From positions 1 to 6,336 of the forward strand of contig JAUYKX010000210.1 in assembly GCA_030699055.1 (NCBI GenBank): a DNA stretch of 6,336 bases, given 5' to 3'. Source of the DNA: Candidatus Nanopelagicales bacterium (GTDB lineage Bacteria; Actinomycetota; Actinomycetes; S36-B12; UBA10799). Within the stretch, counting starts at the first letter, position 1, and every line of letters starts with the position of its first letter. Below are positions 1-6,336 of this stretch, piece by piece. The notes under the pieces were generated by a model. The model made no database searches. It saw only the letters and a program-made list of their open reading frames with translations, and had not been told where the DNA came from. The translations under genes were made by a program, and so were the position numbers.

Positions 1-34
1 AGAGGCCGAGGAGACGACGGAGGGCGAGGCATGA
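1..34 (+). CDS. 3' end of an upstream gene (partial), possibly a second fluC/crcB
   Basis: The reading frame entering from the left edge ends in an acidic tail, EAEETTEGEA, and stops with TGA at 32-34. That stop overlaps the ATG of the next gene as ATGA, the usual sign of translational coupling within an operon. Only eleven codons are visible, so the product cannot be recognised. Gram-positive bacteria often carry two adjacent crcB/fluC genes whose products pair as a heterodimer, so a sister subunit is a reasonable guess, but this is inference from context only. Confidence 0.6.
   Translation, partial: EAEETTEGEA
19..24 (+). promoter_or_regulatory. Ribosome binding site of crcB
   Basis: GGAGGG sits 6 bases upstream of the ATG at 31, inside the last codons of the preceding gene. 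It supports ATG 31 as the start despite the overlap with the upstream stop. Confidence 0.6.
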
Positions 35-444
35 GCGGCTGGTCGGTCTTGGCCGTGGCGGCCGGGGCGGCGGCCGGGGCGCCGGCCCGCTTCTGGATCG
101 ACCGGCGGTGTGTTGCCCGCTGGGGGCCGCGCTGGCCGGCCGGAACGTTGACCGTGAATCTGATCGGTTGCGCGGTACTCGGTTTGATCACCGGTTTTCT
201 GGCCGGTACCGGGATGGCTGCGGGGGAGCCGGTATTTGTTGTCCTGTCGGCCGGGGCGGGGACGGGTTTTTGTGGCGCTCTGACGACTTTTGGCGGATTT
301 GGGGCCCAGATTTTGAATTTGGAGCGCCGGTCGACTCGTCCGCCACGAACTCGGTGGGCGGGCATTGGTTATGCCGTGGTTTCGGTCACGGTGGGTGTCG
401 GCTTGGCCGTTCTCGGTTACGCAGCGGGTACGGGCATTGGTTGA
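31..444 (+). CDS. crcB: Fluoride efflux channel FluC/CrcB
   Basis: This is a small membrane protein of the FluC (CrcB) family, which forms dimeric, fluoride-selective channels that let toxic fluoride leave the cytoplasm. Its 137 residues match the usual family length, with four hydrophobic segments (about 3-20, 38-60, 66-93 and 110-133). The early GAxxR element ends at Arg20. The pore segment GTLTVNLIG (38-46) carries the conserved Asn43. The fourth-motif region GFCGALTTFGGF (79-90) keeps the two phenylalanines (87, 90) of the fluoride-lining 'Phe box'. The usual TTFSTF reads TTFGGF, so the serine is Gly. A Shine-Dalgarno-like GGAGGG lies 6 bases before the ATG. The start overlaps the stop of the upstream gene, so it is probably co-translated with it. 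No fluoride riboswitch is visible because the operon start lies outside the window. Confidence 0.93.
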   Translation: MSGWSVLAVAAGAAAGAPARFWIDRRCVARWGPRWPAGTLTVNLIGCAVLGLITGFLAGTGMAAGEPVFVVLSAGAGTGFCGALTTFGGFGAQILNLERRSTRPPRTRWAGIGYAVVSVTVGVGLAVLGYAAGTGIG

Positions 445-467
445 TCGGCCGATTTTGACCGTCAACC

Positions 468-523
468 CTGTTCTTGGGTGCGTTTTTCCGTCTTGGTCCC
501 CGGGCTAACGCACCCAAGAACAG
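468..523. terminator. 17-bp perfect inverted repeat, probable bidirectional terminator
   Basis: The arm CTGTTCTTGGGTGCGTT (468-484) is the exact reverse complement of 507-523, separated by a 22-base loop. It lies between the ends of two convergent genes, fluC (stop at 444) and the cyclo-ligase (stop at 565), where a shared terminator is expected. No U-tract directly follows either arm, which is common in actinobacterial terminators. On the plus strand a T5 run begins at 534. The length and perfection of the stem are more than a minimal terminator needs. Confidence 0.6.
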
Positions 524-564
524 TGGTCGGGTGTTTTTGGGAGCTGAAAGCAGCCGATTTCGCC

Positions 565-1203
565 CTAACCCAAGATCCAGCCGTCTATAGGTTGATCGAA
601 TTCAGCCGTCGGAACGCTGTCGGTCAACTCGTCCGACCCGACAAGGGCCAGGAACACCAGCCGACCGGGGCCCGCGCCGGCACCGAGATCCGCGCCGGCC
701 CCAGCCCCAGCCCCGGCCCCGGCACCCGGGCCAGCCCCGGCGCGGGCCTCGGCGATCAGACGGTCGAAATAACCCCCACCCTGCCCGAGCCGTGAAAAGT
801 CCCGGCCGACCGCCAGGGCCGGCGTGATGACCACGGCGCAGTTGTGACGCAGCAGGCCGTCCGACCCCGGCACGGTCGCCGAATCCGGCTGGTCGGGGTA
901 ACCCCAAGCCAGCGATCGGTGAGGTTGAACCCGGGGAAGCAGGACACCGATTCCCTCCTCGCGCAGTCGGGCGATGAGGGCGGCAGTGGGAGGCTCGGTT
1001 TCGATGGCCTCGTACACAGCCACGGTTTGACCGGCGGCGGCGGCGCGGAGCACGGTTTCGTGCGCGCACACGGCCTCGGCGATCCGGGCCGCGCGAGCCT
1101 GCCACTCGGCCTCGGACATCGCTCGGCGCGCCTCCCGGCGGCGCCCGCGAAGCTCGGCGCGCAGGGCCGCCTTTCGCGCGGCCAACGGCGTCCCCTCACC
1201 CAT
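565..1203 (-). CDS. 5-formyltetrahydrofolate cyclo-ligase (MTHFS)
   Basis: This cytoplasmic enzyme of folate metabolism converts 5-formyltetrahydrofolate to 5,10-methenyltetrahydrofolate with ATP, salvaging the formyl-folate made by serine hydroxymethyltransferase. It has 212 residues, within the family range. The basic N-terminal helix KAALRAELRGRRR (11-23) has the ATP-contacting Lys/Arg pattern. ETEPPT (68-73) fits the folate-side ExxT element, and RLGQGGGYFDR (138-148) is the family signature RLGxGxGxYDR with Phe for Tyr. Residues 153-180 are an Ala/Gly/Pro-rich insert, AGAG-type, in the loop before the C-terminal strands. The family ending (vP.e..D.p.D) is recognisable as VPTAEFDQPIDGWILG. 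The gene is divergent from galU, as in mycobacteria (Rv0992c/Rv0993), and convergent with fluC. ATG 1203 is the only good start, although its ribosome binding site is weak. Confidence 0.93.
   Translation of the reverse strand: MGEGTPLAARKAALRAELRGRRREARRAMSEAEWQARAARIAEAVCAHETVLRAAAAGQTVAVYEAIETEPPTAALIARLREEGIGVLLPRVQPHRSLAWGYPDQPDSATVPGSDGLLRHNCAVVITPALAVGRDFSRLGQGGGYFDRLIAEARAGAGPGAGAGAGAGAGADLGAGAGPGRLVFLALVGSDELTDSVPTAEFDQPIDGWILG
664..747. repeat. Hexamer-like GC-rich low-complexity tract inside the cyclo-ligase gene
   Basis: On the plus strand this stretch is built from repeated AGCCCC/GGCCCC-type hexamers. On the minus strand it encodes the Ala-Gly-Pro run of the cyclo-ligase (residues 153-180). 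Six-base units keep the reading frame when slippage adds or removes copies, so length variation between strains would be tolerated. Confidence 0.75.
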
Positions 1204-1255
1204 CGGCCGAACCGCCGCTTCCGTGGCACTGCGCCCGCCGACGCCCGACGCCGGC

Positions 1256-1261
1256 TAGGGT
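1256..1261 (+). promoter_or_regulatory. -10 element of a probable leaderless galU promoter
   Basis: TAGGGT matches the actinobacterial TANNNT -10 box and ends 7 bases before the galU ATG at 1269, so transcription would begin at or next to the A of the start codon. No ribosome binding site is seen before the ATG, consistent with a leaderless transcript. No convincing -35 box is visible. Confidence 0.55.
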
Positions 1262-1268
1262 CGGACGC

Positions 1269-2228
1269 ATGACTGCAGCGCGCGGCAAGGCGGGTGAAGT
1301 GGGCGCGGCCAGCGCTGGCAACGCGGCCAGAGCCGGCAACGAGGTTCGGGCCGCGGTGATCCCGGCGGCCGGCCTGGGCACGCGATTGCTCCCGGCGACC
1401 AAGGCCCAGCCCAAGGAGATGCTGCCCGTCGTTGACACGCCAGTCATCCAATACGTCGTGGAGGAAGCAGTCAACGCCGGTCTGGCCGATGTTCTGATGG
1501 TCACGGGGCGGGGCAAGTCTTCGATGGAGGACCATTTCGACCGGGCCCCGGAGTTGGAAGCGGTCCTGCGCCAGAAGGGCGAAGAAGAACAACTGGCCAC
1601 TGTGGTTGGGCTGGCGTCATTGGCCCGGGTCCATTCCGTGCGCCAGCACGAGCCGCTCGGCCTGGGACACGCGGTGTCCTGCGCCAGGGATCATGTCGGT
1701 GACCGGCCGTTCGCGGTGCTGCTCGGTGACGACCTGATCGACCCGACGACGCCCGTGCTCGATCGGATGATCCAGGCCCGGTCCCGCCACGGCGGCACGG
1801 TGCTGTGTCTGATGCCTGTTCCGGACGACCAGATCGGCCGTTACGGCTGTGCCGCCGTCGAGCCGATCCCCGGGTCCGACGAGGTCCGAGTGACCGGCCT
1901 GGTGGAGAAGCCCGCGCCGGGGACCGCGCCAAGCAACCTGGCGCTGGTGGGTCGCTACGTGCTGGACCCGGCTGTGTTCTCCGAACTCGACGGGACGCAA
2001 CCCGGGCACGGCGGCGAGATCCAACTGACGGACGCCCTCCATGCACTGATCCACCGGGATCCGGCGACCGGGGGCGGAGTGACCGGCGTGGTGTTCGACG
2101 GTATGCGCTACGACACCGGCGACAAGCTCTCATACATCCAGGCGGTGATCCGATTGGCGTGCAACCGGGCTGACCTGGGACCGCAACTGCGCGCGTGGTT
2201 GAAGGATTTCGTCGGAAGGACCGGGTGA
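1269..2228 (+). CDS. galU: UTP-glucose-1-phosphate uridylyltransferase
   Basis: GalU makes UDP-glucose from UTP and glucose-1-phosphate in the cytoplasm, supplying cell-envelope polysaccharide, glycogen/trehalose and galactose pathways. The 319-residue protein has the nucleotidyltransferase signature GLGTRLLPATKAQPKEMLPV (35-54), the uridine-binding GLGHAV (131-136), the metal-site GDD (153-155), VEKP (212-215), GRYVL (228-232), GGEIQLTDA (248-256) and the C-terminal DTGDK (282-286). All expected motifs are present, so it should be active. The N-terminus before the nucleotide-binding strand is about 27 residues, longer than usual, and contains a tandem repeat (AASAGN/AARAGN). ATG 1269 is supported by the -10 box just upstream. 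The gene leads a likely operon, with the moeA-like start only 4 bases after its stop. Confidence 0.96.
   Translation: MTAARGKAGEVGAASAGNAARAGNEVRAAVIPAAGLGTRLLPATKAQPKEMLPVVDTPVIQYVVEEAVNAGLADVLMVTGRGKSSMEDHFDRAPELEAVLRQKGEEEQLATVVGLASLARVHSVRQHEPLGLGHAVSCARDHVGDRPFAVLLGDDLIDPTTPVLDRMIQARSRHGGTVLCLMPVPDDQIGRYGCAAVEPIPGSDEVRVTGLVEKPAPGTAPSNLALVGRYVLDPAVFSELDGTQPGHGGEIQLTDALHALIHRDPATGGGVTGVVFDGMRYDTGDKLSYIQAVIRLACNRADLGPQLRAWLKDFVGRTG
1305..1340 (+). repeat. Two tandem 18-bp units in the 5' end of galU
   Basis: Units 1305-1322 and 1323-1340 are directly adjacent and identical at 16 of 18 positions. They are in frame and encode AASAGN then AARAGN (residues 13-24) in the extension ahead of the conserved GalU fold. 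This looks like an in-frame tandem duplication in a part of the protein under weak constraint. Confidence 0.8.
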
Positions 2229-2232
2229 CCAG

Positions 2233-3444
2233 ATGACCGAACTCAGGACCGTCGAGGAGCAGCTTCAGGCGGTGTTGTCCACGTGCCATCCGCTGGACGG
2301 GTTGGAACTTCCGGTTCTGGAGGCGGGCGGCTGTGTGCTAGCCGAGGACGTGTACACCCGGCATCCCCTGCCTCCTTTCGTGGTGGTGATCCACGAGGGC
2401 TACGCGGTGCGCTCGAATGATCTGGTCGGGGTGACGATGGCCCGGCCGGCCCAGCTGACTGTGGTCGACTCGGTGGGGGCGGGTCATCGGGCGTCGGTGC
2501 CGGTCGGGCCGGGTGAGGCGATCCGGGTGGCCGCCGGGACGATGCTGCCGGACGGCTCGGACGCCGTTGTTCCGCTCGGGCACACGGACGGCGGGGCGCA
2601 GGTTGTGCTCGTCGGTGGGCAACCGGCGCCCGGGTCTGGTTTCCGGATGACCGGACAGTTCGCCGGCGCGGAACAGCTGGCCTTGCGGGCGGGAACCGCA
2701 CTCGGGCCCGCTCAGCTCGGGGCAGGAGTGGCCGCGGGCCGGTCGCGGTTGCTGGTTCATCCGGCGCCTCGGGTCGTCGCGGTGACGGTGGGCAGCGAAC
2801 TGGTCGAACCAGGTGGCGAGCTGAGGCCGGGCCTGATTCACGACGTCAATTCGATCATGCTGTCGTCGGCGGTGCTTCAGGCCGGCGCCGTCGCCTACCG
2901 GGCGGGGCCGGTGCCCGACGACCCGGCGGTGTTGGCCAGCGTCATCGAAGGGCAGCTGGTCCGCGCGGACCTGATCGTGGTCACCGGTGGAACCGGGGGT
3001 GTGGTCGGGGCGGCGATGAGCCAACTCGGCAGTTTCGATCCCGTGCCCGTCGCCGTGACTCCCGGTCCGGTGGTCGCGTTTGGCGCGGTGGACGGCCGGA
3101 TTCCTGTGATGTCGCTTCCGGGCGAGCCGGTGAGCGCGATGATCAACTATGAGGTGTTCGTCCGTCCCGCGATCCGGCGGTTGATGGGGAGTCGTCGGCT
3201 GTTTCGCCCGGTGGTCCGGGCTCGGTTGCGGGCGCCGGTGCAGGCACCGGCCGGGCTGCGCCGGTTCGTGCCGGTTGCGCTTTCGGGTAGTGACGGTCAC
3301 CACGAAGTTGATCCGGTCCCGCCGGGGTTGGACTCCTCGCCCCTGGTCGCCGCCTCGGTCACCGGTCTGGCGGTGGTGCCGGAAGAGGTCACCGTCGTCG
3401 AGGCGGGCGAGGACGTGCTGGTCATCCGGCTGGATCGGGATTGA
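2233..3444 (+). CDS. MoeA/gephyrin-like protein lacking MoeA catalytic residues; Glp-type candidate
   Basis: The 403-residue protein aligns along its length with molybdopterin molybdenumtransferase MoeA, which inserts molybdate into molybdopterin. Fold markers remain: LPPF (46-49), GYAVR (56-60), LPDGSDAVV (105-113), GSELVEPG (187-194), PGLIHDVNS (199-207), PDD (228-230), LPGEPVSA (295-302) and a domain IV with SSPLVAAS (368-375). Active-site positions are changed. The MDG Asp (Asp59 in E. coli MoeA) is Glu55, and TGAP is AAGT. GEDI is GQFA, GGVSVGxxD is GGTGGVVGA with no Asp, and KLAIKPGKP is PVAVTPGPV. Only Glu189 and Asp229 clearly survive. It is therefore probably not an enzyme. In Corynebacterium a MoeA-like protein, Glp, binds FtsZ and a membrane receptor, GlpR. 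The neighbour at 4155 resembles that receptor, so a cell-division scaffold role is inferred. Annotation pipelines will likely call it MoeA. GGAAGGA at 2214-2220 is its ribosome binding site. Confidence 0.88.
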   Translation: MTELRTVEEQLQAVLSTCHPLDGLELPVLEAGGCVLAEDVYTRHPLPPFVVVIHEGYAVRSNDLVGVTMARPAQLTVVDSVGAGHRASVPVGPGEAIRVAAGTMLPDGSDAVVPLGHTDGGAQVVLVGGQPAPGSGFRMTGQFAGAEQLALRAGTALGPAQLGAGVAAGRSRLLVHPAPRVVAVTVGSELVEPGGELRPGLIHDVNSIMLSSAVLQAGAVAYRAGPVPDDPAVLASVIEGQLVRADLIVVTGGTGGVVGAAMSQLGSFDPVPVAVTPGPVVAFGAVDGRIPVMSLPGEPVSAMINYEVFVRPAIRRLMGSRRLFRPVVRARLRAPVQAPAGLRRFVPVALSGSDGHHEVDPVPPGLDSSPLVAASVTGLAVVPEEVTVVEAGEDVLVIRLDRD

Positions 3445-4097
3445 GTTCGACCTTCCGTCGGGCGACACCGCGCTTCAGGACACCGAGCTTGAAGCTCGGC
3501 GAGGTCCAGTTGACTCCGATCCGGCTGCGGGACAGTGCCGAATGGCGGGCGGTCAGATTGCGCAACGCCTCCTGGCTGCAGCCGTGGGAAGCGACTTCCC
3601 CCGCCGGTTCGCTGCAGGCTCCGACCACTTTCGCCGACATGGTGCGCGAACTGCGCCGGGAGGCCAGAGCGGGTCGTGTCGTTCCGTGGATCATCCGGGT
3701 TTCGGGCCGGTTGGCCGGGCAGTTGACCGTCAATTCGATTTCATTCGGGTCGCTCCGATCGGCTCAGGCCGGCTACTGGGTGGCCTCGGAATTCGCCGGC
3801 CGCGGCGTCGCTCCCACAGCTTTGGCCGTGGCGACCGACCACTGTTGGACAACTCTGGGCTTGCACCGCATGGAAGTGAACATCCGGCCCGAGAACCAGG
3901 CCAGCCGGCGGGTGGTCGACAAGCTCGGATTCCGCCGCGAGGGGACCCGGGAGCGGTACCTGCACATCAACGGCGACTGGGCCGATCATCAGTCTTTCGC
4001 GCTGACGGTCGAGGAGGTTCCCGGCGGGCTGACGGCGCGTTGGTTGGATTCGCGCGGTGCCGAGGGGGCGGCTAGATCGGACGAATCCGGGAATTGA
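3441..4097 (+). CDS. rimJ: GNAT acetyltransferase, RimJ/RimL type
   Basis: This is a cytoplasmic GNAT-fold acetyltransferase of the RimJ/RimL group, which use acetyl-CoA to acetylate protein N-termini or small amines; the true substrate here is unknown. The 218-residue protein opens its domain with LTPIRLRDSAEW (24-35). It has the strand GYWVASEF (111-118) followed by the acetyl-CoA loop GRGVAP (120-125), a degenerate form of the usual Q/RxxGxG. The helix motif ENQASRRVVDKLGFRREG (151-168) is typical of the group. The C-terminal 25 residues after the fold are acidic and Gly-rich and look disordered. The chosen TTG start overlaps the previous stop as TTGA, suggesting coupling to the moeA-like gene. 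A later TTG at 3489 would also fit the domain. A rimJ gene sits in this same place in mycobacteria (Rv0995). Confidence 0.9.
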   Translation: MSSTFRRATPRFRTPSLKLGEVQLTPIRLRDSAEWRAVRLRNASWLQPWEATSPAGSLQAPTTFADMVRELRREARAGRVVPWIIRVSGRLAGQLTVNSISFGSLRSAQAGYWVASEFAGRGVAPTALAVATDHCWTTLGLHRMEVNIRPENQASRRVVDKLGFRREGTRERYLHINGDWADHQSFALTVEEVPGGLTARWLDSRGAEGAARSDESGN

Positions 4098-4142
4098 GGC
4101 GAGACACGGGGCGATTGCCCGCGCCGGAGGGCTGTTCTCTCC

Positions 4143-4148
4143 TAGTCT
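4143..4148 (+). promoter_or_regulatory. -10 element of a probable leaderless sepX/glpR promoter
   Basis: TAGTCT fits TANNNT and ends 6 bases before GTG 4155. This spacing places the transcription start at the GTG, which argues for a leaderless message and decides the start codon: a TTG at 4149 in the same frame would lie upstream of the transcript. No -35 box with good spacing is seen. Confidence 0.5.
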
Positions 4149-4154
4149 TTGCCC

Positions 4155-5201
4155 GTGCTCACCGGATTGGTCTATGCCGCAGTAGTGATCTTGTGGGCGG
4201 CCGTGTTGGTTCCGCAGTGGCTTCGGCGTCACGATCGAAACGCGGCGACCAGAACGACCCTGACTTTTCATCGGGCGATGAAGGCCCTGGGGCGTCGCCG
4301 GGTCATGCCCGGGGCGAGCCGCGCCTCGCACAACGTCGATGTCGTCGTGTCCGGCGCACAATCGCGCGTCCATGACCGGGTCCGGGTCGGAGCCCGCGGG
4401 GCGAGCGGCGCCGACCCGATCGACGAGCACTTGGATGCCGGCATTGACCCGTTTGAAGGCGGCGAGCAGGAGCGGCACCTGATCGAGGCCCGGCTGGCCC
4501 GGTCGCGGATGATCGCGCGTGAGGCCGCTGCCCGGCGTCGGCGACATGTGCGGCAGACGCTGATCGGCCTGGGGGTCATCGCGCTGGTTCTTTACGTGAT
4601 GGGGGCCGTTCCGCTGGTCGCCGTGCTGCTTCCGCCGCTGGGACTCGGCGCCCTGTGGTTCGCCACCCGGCAGATCGGTGCGCGGCCCGCCGCGTCGCGC
4701 AAACGCGCCAACACCGCGCGGCCCTCTTCGGCCCGGAGCGCGAAGAGTCGCCGCGGAACCACCAGCGCGCGGACGCGGACGAAGTCGACAACCGAGTCGG
4801 CGTCGCGGTCCCGCACCAGCTCGCGCACCAGGTCCCGCTCTGCACGTCGCTACGTCGAACCAGGCCGAGCCGGGGTGGCCACAGCGGCCGGGGGCGAGGA
4901 ACTTTCTGACGTCCGACTGTTGTCCGACGACGAAGTCGCCGCCCGGCAGGCTGCAACCGATCCCGATGCCTGGGATGCGGTGGAGTCGCCGCTTCCCCGC
5001 TACATCGCCGAGGCCGGTGCTCCCCGGCGCCGAGCGGCGGGCGGAATCCGCGGTGAGGACTGGACCGCGCGGCGCATGCTCGAGCAGGTCGAGGCCCTAC
5101 GGACACCCGGGTCGGACGCCGAGGCTGAACTGGGGCTGGACGACTTCGTCGCCGTTCCCGGCGAGGAGGCTTACGAGCACCGTCGCGCCGTCAACGACTG
5201 A
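4155..5201 (+). CDS. Membrane protein of the SepX/GlpR type (cell division)
   Basis: From GTG 4155 the protein has 348 residues. TM1 is at the extreme N-terminus (about 3-20) and is followed by RRHDR, placing the next part in the cytoplasm. A charged region of about 110 residues follows. Two close TM segments (about 134-150 and 152-169) come after a RRRRHVR cluster. A basic Ser/Thr/Arg-rich linker (176-232) then leads to an acidic C-terminal domain with WDAVESPLPRYI (273-284) and WTARRMLEQ (303-311). This layout, the W...PLP.Y motif, and the position after galU, moeA-like and rimJ match actinobacterial SepX (Streptomyces) and GlpR (Corynebacterium), and Rv0996 in M. tuberculosis. Those proteins act at the division site, and GlpR is the membrane partner of the MoeA-like Glp. 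Function here is inferred from this resemblance. It has its own apparent promoter in the 57-base gap after rimJ. Confidence 0.82.
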   Translation: MLTGLVYAAVVILWAAVLVPQWLRRHDRNAATRTTLTFHRAMKALGRRRVMPGASRASHNVDVVVSGAQSRVHDRVRVGARGASGADPIDEHLDAGIDPFEGGEQERHLIEARLARSRMIAREAAARRRRHVRQTLIGLGVIALVLYVMGAVPLVAVLLPPLGLGALWFATRQIGARPAASRKRANTARPSSARSAKSRRGTTSARTRTKSTTESASRSRTSSRTRSRSARRYVEPGRAGVATAAGGEELSDVRLLSDDEVAARQAATDPDAWDAVESPLPRYIAEAGAPRRRAAGGIRGEDWTARRMLEQVEALRTPGSDAEAELGLDDFVAVPGEEAYEHRRAVND

Positions 5202-5209
5202 CGGGCCGG

Positions 5210-5215
5210 TATCCT
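5210..5215 (+). promoter_or_regulatory. -10 element for the tRNA-Ala gene
   Basis: TATCCT begins 9 bases after the upstream stop codon and ends 17 bases before the mature tRNA 5' end. It matches the TANNNT -10 form, so the tRNA would carry a short 5' leader of about 10 bases. No clear -35 box is seen. Confidence 0.5.
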
Positions 5216-5232
5216 CTCGGAGTTCCCAATTT

Positions 5233-5309
<77 letters not shown>

Positions 5310-5320
5310 GCGTGACTACT

Positions 5321-5349
5321 TTGAGCCTTGGGCTTGCCGGGGCTAGGGT
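5321..5349 (+). promoter_or_regulatory. Promoter candidate for the small gene and rhuM
   Basis: TTGAGC (5321-5326) and TAGGGT (5344-5349) are separated by exactly 17 bases, a good fit to a housekeeping sigma-factor promoter. Transcription would begin near 5356, leaving a leader of about 60 bases before the ATG at 5417. It is the best two-box promoter in the window. Confidence 0.45.
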
Positions 5350-5403
5350 TTCCATTGGCGGCCCGCACTGTGAGGTTCTCCAGGGAAAGTGGGCATCCTG
5401 TTG

Positions 5404-5409
5404 AAAGGA
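5404..5409 (+). promoter_or_regulatory. Ribosome binding site of the small gene
   Basis: AAAGGA lies 7 bases before ATG 5417 and supports this frame over a competing ATG at 5409, which overlaps the site itself and opens a frame that runs past the rhuM start. Confidence 0.5.
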
Positions 5410-5416
5410 TGTCGCA

Positions 5417-5656
5417 ATGTCTGTCACTCGGTCCACAGCTCGCCGGAGGTTCGCTCCGGAGCTATGTGCTGCGAACCTTCACCCGTTCCGCTTGGCGGTC
5501 GAAGATGCAGCCAAGAAGGTCAACGCGGGGACTCGTAACCACTTCAGTCACGACGATCCCGAGGACGTCGACGAACAGCTCTCAGTGGAGTATTCGGCCG
5601 CAGGTAGCGCTCAGGCACGTTGGATTAGCGAATCCACCGTTGAGGTCGCCGAATGA
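5417..5656 (+). CDS. Small hypothetical protein coupled to rhuM
   Basis: I do not recognise this 79-residue protein. It has a basic N-terminus (MSVTRSTARRRFAPE), a middle stretch FRLAVEDAAKKVNAG (24-38), and an acidic second half with HDDPEDVDEQL (45-55) that ends EVAE. There are no membrane segments, signal peptide or metal-binding cysteine pairs. The sequence is soluble in character. Two things support it as a real gene: an AAAGGA ribosome binding site at good spacing, and a stop codon that overlaps the ATG of the next gene (ATGA). The overlap suggests the product is made together with the RhuM-like protein. A 6-bp GC-rich hairpin (5443-5459) lies near its 5' end. It could be a remnant of a longer gene rather than a complete small protein. 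Confidence 0.55.
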   Translation: MSVTRSTARRRFAPELCAANLHPFRLAVEDAAKKVNAGTRNHFSHDDPEDVDEQLSVEYSAAGSAQARWISESTVEVAE

Positions 5657-6231
5657 GCGACGAGAAGAAGCTGATTCGCAACAGCACGGCTGAATTTCTG
5701 ATCTTCACCTCGCAGGATCGCGGAGAGAGTATCGAAGCACGTTATGCCGATGAAACGGTTTGGCTGAGCCAGCGGCTTATGGCTGAGCTGTTCGGCGTCG
5801 ATGTGCGAACAGTCAGCGAGCATTTGAGGAACATTTTCGCCAGCGGTGAACTTGACCACGACCCAACTGTCCGGAAATTCCGGATAGTTCAAAGGGAAGG
5901 TTCGCGTGACGTTGCGCGCGAGGTGGAGCATTACAACCTCGACGCCATCATCTCCGTCGGGTACCGCGTCAATTCGATTCGGGCGACGCAGTTCCGCCAA
6001 TGGGCGACAGGTGTGCTGCGCGAGTTTGCGATCAAGGGCTACGTGCTCGACAACCAGCGGCTCGAGAACGGCGCGTTCTTGAACGAGGACTACTTCGAGC
6101 GACTCCTCGAAGAGATTCGCGAGATCCGTCTCAGTGAGCGGCGTTTCTATCAGAAGATCACTGATATCTACGCGACCAGCATCGACTACAACCCGCAGGG
6201 TCTCGTCAAAGTCGTGGCGGTGAGGGTTTGA
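5653..6231 (+). CDS. rhuM: RhuM family protein, C-terminally truncated
   Basis: The protein belongs to the RhuM family, named from Salmonella pathogenicity island 3 and common on genomic islands and near phage or restriction genes; its biochemical role is not established. A DNA-binding helix-turn-helix is suggested by VWLSQRLMAELFGVDVRTVS (36-55). It is followed by the conserved HLRNIFASGEL (57-67), YNLDAIISVGYRVNS (94-108) and FRQWATGVLREFAIKGY (114-130). The match continues to DIYATSIDYNP (171-181) and then ends abruptly. Full RhuM proteins run about 330-350 residues, with FFATVQNKLHWA-like sequence next, whereas this one stops at 192 after an unrelated tail. No other frame nearby restores the family sequence, so replacement or insertion is likelier than a frameshift. 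Start ATG 5653 overlaps the small gene's stop, and GAGG lies 7 bases upstream. It may keep the DNA-binding part only. Confidence 0.85.
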   Translation: MSDEKKLIRNSTAEFLIFTSQDRGESIEARYADETVWLSQRLMAELFGVDVRTVSEHLRNIFASGELDHDPTVRKFRIVQREGSRDVAREVEHYNLDAIISVGYRVNSIRATQFRQWATGVLREFAIKGYVLDNQRLENGAFLNEDYFERLLEEIREIRLSERRFYQKITDIYATSIDYNPQGLVKVVAVRV

Positions 6232-6336
6232 CCTGCGAATACGTCCGGGGACTGGCGCTTTCCCGGGGATTGTGATAGCTGTAGGCGGGTGCGACAACGG
6301 TTTGACGGTTCACAGGACCTGGTTGTTCGTCCTGTT
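6196..6336. other. Sequence unrelated to rhuM; possible edge of an inserted element
   Basis: RhuM similarity ends near 6195. What follows contains GTCAAA (6205-6210) inverted as TTTGAC (6227-6232), and an 8-base direct repeat GGTTTGAC at 6225-6232 and 6299-6306. There is also a hairpin at the window edge. Short inverted motifs of this sort occur at insertion-sequence ends, but no transposase or matching second end is in view, so the identity is open. Confidence 0.25.
6312..6335. terminator. Hairpin at the window end, possible terminator
   Basis: ACAGGAC (6312-6318) pairs perfectly with GTCCTGT (6329-6335) around a 10-base loop, followed by T at the edge. It could end the rhuM transcript 80 bases after its stop. 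Whether a T-run follows cannot be seen. Confidence 0.3.

Follow-up and report, generated by a model that had tools for sequence, protein, structure and literature searches.

In Corynebacterium glutamicum, Glp binds FtsZ and GlpR, and glp and glpr are co-localized (PMC10522489 and PMC11733289, both drawn on here through the sections available). The Glp-GlpR complex has been demonstrated in this species, and Pro-rich hinges are described as a signature of Glp (PMC10522489). The same sections describe the Glp active site as poorly conserved, predict that the enzyme role is lost, and attribute at least two MoeA copies to Glp-expressing bacteria (PMC10522489, PMC11733289). Loss of catalysis by Glp is already a general published prediction (PMC11733289), so this idea is not new. 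Here we describe a Glp encoded in a 6,336-nucleotide stretch of DNA from a Candidatus Nanopelagicales bacterium (contig JAUYKX010000210.1, positions 1 to 6,336; referred to below as the window). With a probability of about 0.8, the gene at window 2233-3444 encodes a Glp in which one of five core residues survives and whose sole role would most likely be that of a scaffold, with the predicted partner GlpR providing the membrane anchor. This reading draws on the residue losses, the locus, a retained hinge and EDQLVRAD-type element, and a class-wide link between adjacent moaC and an intact site. For the window alone, the finding extends a phenomenon already known; what is new, within the literature searched, is a class-wide switch between a form that is both enzyme and scaffold and one that is a scaffold only.

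We chose D59, T100, D142, D228, and D259 of E. coli MoeA as five core positions (accepting E at 259), a choice that is our own assumption, and we take D259, K275, P298, and P301 to be active-site residues. The reference protein was translated from NC_000913. According to Protein Data Bank (PDB) titles, D59, T100, R137, D142, E188, D228, K279, R350, and S371 have been mutation targets in E. coli MoeA, and D228 is described as a Mg2+ ligand in the available part of PMC9458074. The gene and its site positions are as follows.

2233 to 3444, plus strand: glp, encoding a MoeA-fold protein of 403 amino acids, with no internal stop
2395 to 2397, plus strand: E55, which replaces D59 of E. coli MoeA
2533 to 2535, plus strand: A101, which replaces T100
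2659 to 2661, plus strand: F143, which replaces D142
2917 to 2919, plus strand: D229, the counterpart of D228, kept
2986 to 3012, plus strand: GGTGGVVGA, the eroded loop that bears D259 in E. coli MoeA
3046 to 3060, plus strand: P272 to T276, in which P272 replaces K275 and T276 replaces K279

Only D228 is thus kept among the five core residues. D259 is replaced by G within GGTGGVVGA, with the exact column uncertain; R350 is replaced by P; and the SAM of SAMDGYA has been replaced (VVIHEGYA). The original prediction, made from the letters of the window, had listed the losses of Asp59, Thr100, Asp142, Asp259, Lys275/Lys279, and SAM, and alignment with E. coli MoeA bears out every one. Its description of the site as erased was too strong: R137, E188, D228 (as D229), P298, and P301 remain, and S371 is ambiguous, aligning with D in one alignment and with S in two others. 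The core losses exceed what chance would give, because 138 of 141 untruncated Glps encoded beside moaC retain the complete set of five (see below). The K275 position is not strict even in that set, being K or R in only 96 of 141.

The best NCBIfam match of the protein is Glp_gephyrin NF045515, at 343.9 bits against an equivalog cut-off of 475, and its top PDB sequence match is 8bve, C. glutamicum Glp. The Pfam models MoeA_N, MoCF_biosynth, and MoeA_C all score above their cut-offs, covering MoeA domains I to IV. The original prediction had likened the protein to a repurposed, Glp-like scaffold, and the NF045515 and 8bve matches, the galU-glp-rimJ-glpR neighborhood, and erosion in sister Glps all agree with this. 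Its suggestion that the protein has drifted further than corynebacterial Glp also holds by count, with four of five core residues lost versus two of five in C. glutamicum, via different residues.

An AlphaFold2 model (mean predicted local distance difference test [pLDDT], 93.8; predicted template modeling score [pTM], 0.87) has the full MoeA fold and lies nearest, by root-mean-square deviation, to closed Mo-insertases. This fold, together with the retained D228, E188, R137, P298, and P301, is the case for continued molybdotransferase activity (or that of a tungsten variant) at a rearranged site, with division as a moonlighting role. We consider that very unlikely: D59, T100, D142, D259, and both Lys positions have changed, no moaC or mogA adjoins the window glp, and a second MoeA, whose motifs are intact, is encoded in the genome. 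Further, three Glps of the same family (f1) show three different loss patterns, which is not expected of a re-tuned site.

We collected 260 unique MoeA-family frames from the loci of 60 relatives, a 148-genome class sample (120 chosen stretches), and named loci (the best 80 of 492, rich in Streptomyces). At the rimJ/glpR locus lie 200 of these frames, of which 194 are not cut by a sequence end. Many Actinomycetes have the order galU-glp-moaC-mogA-rimJ-glpR. Where moaC lies beside glp (linked), 138 of 141 untruncated Glps keep D59, T100, D142, D228, and D/E259; where it does not (unlinked), 1 of 53 is intact, 39 are eroded, and 13 are without domain II. Both moaC and mogA were found at 133 of the 141 linked loci and moaC only at 8, three of these having less than 1.5 kb of downstream sequence and five at least 4.9 kb. 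The exceptions to the link are L010 (T100A), L200 (D142E), L222 (D142A), and the unlinked but intact L223. In the L223 genome (G093), about 4 kb of frames, biosynthetic by eye, occupy the usual place of moaC/mogA between glp and rimJ, possibly reflecting a recent displacement of these two genes.

On a tree of RimJ plus GalU, linkage changed 11 times and site state 12 times. This tree has 119 rows from 120 chosen (66 linked and 54 unlinked; GalU available for 91 of 120), with linked rows thinned to three per family or genus and without four truncated Glps, one of them linked and three unlinked. In 300 random pairings of disjoint pairs on the best tree, 11 pairs were concordant in 203, and 10 were concordant with one tie in 97; opposed pairs never occurred. 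On well-supported branches, five disjoint pairs were left, with a mean of 4.5 concordant and none opposed; a sign test would need more. The routes of loss differ. In family f9, probably the corynebacterial order judging from its FtsZ loop, the nine Glps have T100 but not D228, and two of them are also without D259; all unlinked full-length Glps outside f9, except L223, lose T100. We found no statement of a link between moaC linkage and site state in the literature searched, which covered few subscription papers. The words moaC, operon, and synteny are absent from the text available for PMC11733289; in that of PMC10522489, moaC, galU, and rimJ are absent, mogA occurs once, and operon occurs once, in the references.

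The linked set comprised 29 genomes, each chosen for having exactly one match at E ≤ 1e-30, so that it shows existence and not frequency. All 29 have one MoeA_N protein above the Pfam cut-off (G095 has one further match, below it) and MoaA, and 26 have MoCoBD_1 molybdoenzymes (not G064, G103, or G120). The linked intact locus was verified in 28 (not G115), and there Glp is the only MoeA_N protein above the cut-off. Because Glp is the sole MoeA where MoaA is present, the Glps of these 28 genomes have probably remained enzymes, at odds with the general statement in print; judged from these gene contents, Glp in the 28 genomes would likely be the cell's molybdotransferase. Of 62 chosen genomes, 24 lack a MoaC match, and 23 of these also lack a MoaA match (G030 has MoaA). 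All 23 still have a Glp-type match, with the rimJ locus seen in 16 (not in G091, G101, G118, G132, G145, G186, or G195). Molybdoenzymes were searched for in 18 of the 23 (all but G091, G106, G150, G137, and G073): MoCoBD_1 had no match in any of the 18, and a single PF00384 protein, probably NuoG, is encoded in each, the frames spanning 741 to 1354 amino acids.

The host genome is a draft of 1.86 Mb in 367 contigs and is 68% complete. A check for another intact MoeA, as proposed in the original prediction, found one on contig C198 of this genome (G000; L074, frames 3801-4418 and 4422-4916), with the motifs SAMDGYA, IMTGA, AGDDVR, and GGVSMGSYE. In the draft it carries one in-frame TAG and is cut by the contig end. 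The situation that was to count against a scaffold, a genome with this Glp as its only MoeA and with active molybdoenzymes, therefore does not arise in this draft. The C198 contig also carries moaC, which fits a case in which another MoeA serves the cofactor pathway. MoaA and MoCoBD_1 gave no match in the incomplete host genome, where one NuoG-sized PF00384 frame was seen; a family member that is 98% complete (G006) has MoaA, MoaC, a 1246-amino-acid PF00384 frame, and a MoeA with an intact core. Several genomes of the order also hold a third, divergent MoeA paralogue (C129 [L075] in the host; L084, L085, L087, L088, and L090-L092); most of these have E instead of D142, and the K279 position is R.

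Five of the 11 family genomes showed a Glp at the locus, eroded in every case. There was no match in G001, G003, and G007, only MoeA-type matches elsewhere in G004, G005, and G009, and likewise no match in G032, G038, and G051 of the wider order; Glp can therefore be lost, or missed. These six family genomes, and a fast divergence that leaves the nearest relatives 39 to 47% identical and none close enough for a selection test, would suit a decaying pseudogene without function. The gene itself makes that hardly credible, given its open 403-amino-acid frame, a coding GC content at third codon positions of 0.817 (0.819 for galU), a possible 4-nucleotide overlap with rimJ, and the retained hinge and EDQLVRAD element, as does the persistence of Glp in the 23 genomes without detected MoaA and MoaC.

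Two elements outside the catalytic site are retained in the window Glp.

2755 to 2778, plus strand: VHPAPRVV, a Pro-rich stretch at the link between domains I and III (hinge 2), kept
2947 to 2970, plus strand: EGQLVRAD, a form of the Glp-typical EDQLVRAD element, running from the end of a domain III helix into the approach to the next strand

VHPAPRVV probably corresponds to the Pro-rich hinge region described in the sections available of PMC10522489. Of the two hinges, hinge 2 is kept as HPAPR, and hinge 1 reads PLDGLEL versus PLxPL in many Glps, the second Pro being missing. The unlinked Glps that are both untruncated and full-length number 40. Of these, 10 still have T100 and one has K/Q279, whereas all 40 have the hinge P/P/R, 37 have the Q of EDQLVRAD, and 38 have its R (linked Glps: Q in 119 and R in 128 of 141). 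Site residues are lost while hinge and element residues stay, indicating that the decay is aimed at the catalytic site. Matches to the element at no fewer than six of eight positions occur in all 14 domain-II-less Glps, in 122 of 143 linked Glps, and in 32 of the 43 unlinked Glps of full length. Of the 60 frames not seen at the rimJ/glpR locus, 12 reach this level; four are from family f5, and the other eight are probably Glps (galU lies upstream in seven). The EDQLVRAD element may be a partner surface.

The 14 domain-II-less Glps (13 untruncated; L034-L042, L275-L278, and L279) all lie at the locus with a glpR match, and all have the exact EDQLVRAD sequence, although the 13 that were aligned are 29 to 81% identical to the first. 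They come from four families: f31 (four), f6 (six plus one truncated), f7 (two), and f10 (one). The f31 genomes are assembled in 1 to 3 contigs, and some genomes with this type are a single contig. A model of one f31 protein (pLDDT, 84.0; pTM, 0.84) places 8bve first by E value in Foldseek, with equally high TM-scores for MoeA and Cnx1E; a profile of the 13 scores 210.7 bits with 8bve, 137.6 with Cnx1E, and at best 124.1 with E. coli MoeA chains. Two genomes, G027 and G039, combine a domain-II-less locus Glp (L042 and L041, respectively) with a full-length, intact-core MoeA beside moaC/mogA elsewhere (L081 and L082), and neither of these MoeAs has the element.

In nine f5 genomes, a MoeA with five of five core residues (L019, L022-L024, L060, L061, and L070-L072) was not seen at the rimJ/glpR locus, and seven of the nine lie beside moaC/mogA; four of the nine loci have only 0.9 to 1.5 kb of downstream sequence, so that a more distant rimJ could be missed. 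Their element is altered (EDQLHRCD twice, EDQLHFAD, EDQVHRAD, QDQVHRAD, and NDQVHRAD), and three are barely similar. Whether orthologue or paralogue of Glp, the f5 MoeA is a possible mirror case, in which the enzyme half would be kept while the scaffold half decays.

The NF045515 cut-off was tried on ten proteins. A UBA10799 Glp (312.4 bits), two domain-II-less Glps (278.7 and 183.4), and a Gleimia Glp (449.8) fall below it, and L082, located outside the glp locus, passes (490.5). Because it fails locus Glps and passes L082, the cut-off defines Glp poorly in this order: the NCBIfam name is given to probable active enzymes and withheld from decayed scaffolds, the window Glp among them. Misannotation of the window Glp as a molybdenum cofactor enzyme is plausible, because it scores below the Glp cut-off.

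The glp gene sits in a galU-glp-rimJ-glpR neighborhood, so that glp and glpR are co-located in a conserved setting, with no moaC or mogA adjoining glp. The order 5-formyltetrahydrofolate cyclo-ligase/galU-glp-rimJ-glpR recurs among relatives.

1269 to 2228, plus strand: galU, upstream of glp (TIGR01099, 311.1 bits; cut-off, 326.8)
3441 to 4097, plus strand: rimJ-like GNAT acetyltransferase
4149 to 5201, plus strand: glpR/sepX-like membrane protein, start codon uncertain
565 to 1203, minus strand: 5-formyltetrahydrofolate cyclo-ligase, divergent, recurrent at the locus

The rimJ-like gene overlaps the end of glp by 4 nucleotides, provided that TTG is the correct start. The predicted membrane partner, glpR, is two genes away from glp and scores 99.3 bits with the GlpR model (cut-off, 150). 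Its product has an N-terminal hydrophobic helix, a second hydrophobic stretch with room for two helices, and a C-terminal part consisting of a very basic region (isoelectric point [pI], 12.0) and then an acidic tail (pI, 4.4). The window also contains crcB, a tRNA-Ala gene, and a RhuM-like gene. The tRNA-Ala (anticodon CGC) and a subsequent drop in GC content lie within 5233-6336 (0.56 to 0.59, versus 0.65 to 0.73 across most of the remainder), and the RhuM-like gene (5653-6231) matches only positions 2 to 111 of 252 in the Pfam model; this region looks like a mobile insertion next to a tRNA. A 17-nucleotide perfect inverted repeat with arms 22 nucleotides apart (468-523), located where crcB and the cyclo-ligase gene converge, is a possible two-way terminator.

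The host FtsZ ends in IDVPDFLK. Of seven Glp side-chain contacts with FtsZ named in the sections available of PMC10522489, the window Glp keeps two, so the published, C. glutamicum-type FtsZ mode is unsupported for this lineage; this signature, derived from Corynebacteriales, may not define Glp elsewhere. M361, Y369, L370, and F414 are each present in nine of nine f9 Glps; the other groups vary, with Y at position 369 in 50 linked Glps. Any contact of the window Glp with FtsZ would have to run through residues other than the corynebacterial ones. The unkept contacts, and the presence of rimJ beside all 57 unlinked Glps with glpR found beside 42, could also mean that Glp here is out of division and has a third role, for example as a regulator associated with GalU or RimJ that binds a pterin or a nucleotide. 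We regard this as unlikely, since glpR was found next to every one of the 14 domain-II-less Glps, divergent glpR genes may have escaped the queries, and the Glp-GlpR complex has been shown in C. glutamicum (PMC10522489, available sections).

In a scaffold-only reading of the window Glp, the ancestral Glp would have been the cell's molybdotransferase and a divisome scaffold at once. The departure of moaC/mogA from the locus would have followed from service of the cofactor pathway by another MoeA, or from loss of that pathway; selection on the site would then have ceased while the scaffold surfaces were retained. We lean slightly toward a broader account in which Glp is two machines in one chain, a molybdotransferase and a scaffold, in most sampled Actinomycetes. 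On this account, lineages would have discarded the enzyme half about 11 times; the disappearance of moaC/mogA from the operon would mark this step, and deletion of domain II would be its end point. Together, the EDQLVRAD element and Pro hinge, rather than the corynebacterial FtsZ hairpin, would form the conserved scaffold partner surface, and in f5 MoeA off the rimJ/glpR locus, the site would stay as the element decays. Repeated losses, including whole-domain deletions, provide natural mutants that separate scaffold from catalytic surfaces. Against the published view of a group that lost catalysis and has at least two MoeA copies (PMC10522489 and PMC11733289, as available), Glp in many lineages can be the sole MoeA, with the site intact, in genomes that have MoaA and mostly MoCoBD_1 molybdoenzymes, which makes the question of moonlighting or repurposing testable in Streptomyces and its kin.

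The window Glp shares its MoeA fold, Pro-rich hinge 2, and glp-glpR neighborhood with C. glutamicum Glp (Cgl0883; 8bve/8bvf) and its receptor GlpR (PMC10522489, available sections). Both Glps have lost catalytic residues and carry related elements (ESQMLRSE versus EGQLVRAD), but C. glutamicum Glp lost D228 and D259, whereas the window Glp lost D59, T100, D142, and D259; the window Glp keeps two of the seven FtsZ side-chain contacts, and the GlpR charge pattern differs. E. coli MoeA (1g8l) and the second host MoeA on C198 (by sequence only) have the same four-domain MoeA fold and, unlike the window protein, which is without four of five, keep the core residues (with E at the D259 position in C198). 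The moaC/mogA-linked Glps of Streptomyces, Kribbella, metagenome-assembled genomes titled Frankiales, and others share the locus, the hinge, and mostly an EDQLVRAD-type element with the window Glp but have an intact catalytic site in 138 of 141. The gephyrin E domain is likewise a MoeA fold serving as a membrane-receptor scaffold; gephyrin differs in keeping its enzyme role and in being fused to a MogA domain (PMC11733289, available sections). Glp is the bacterial parallel to gephyrin, a metabolic enzyme recruited as a receptor scaffold.
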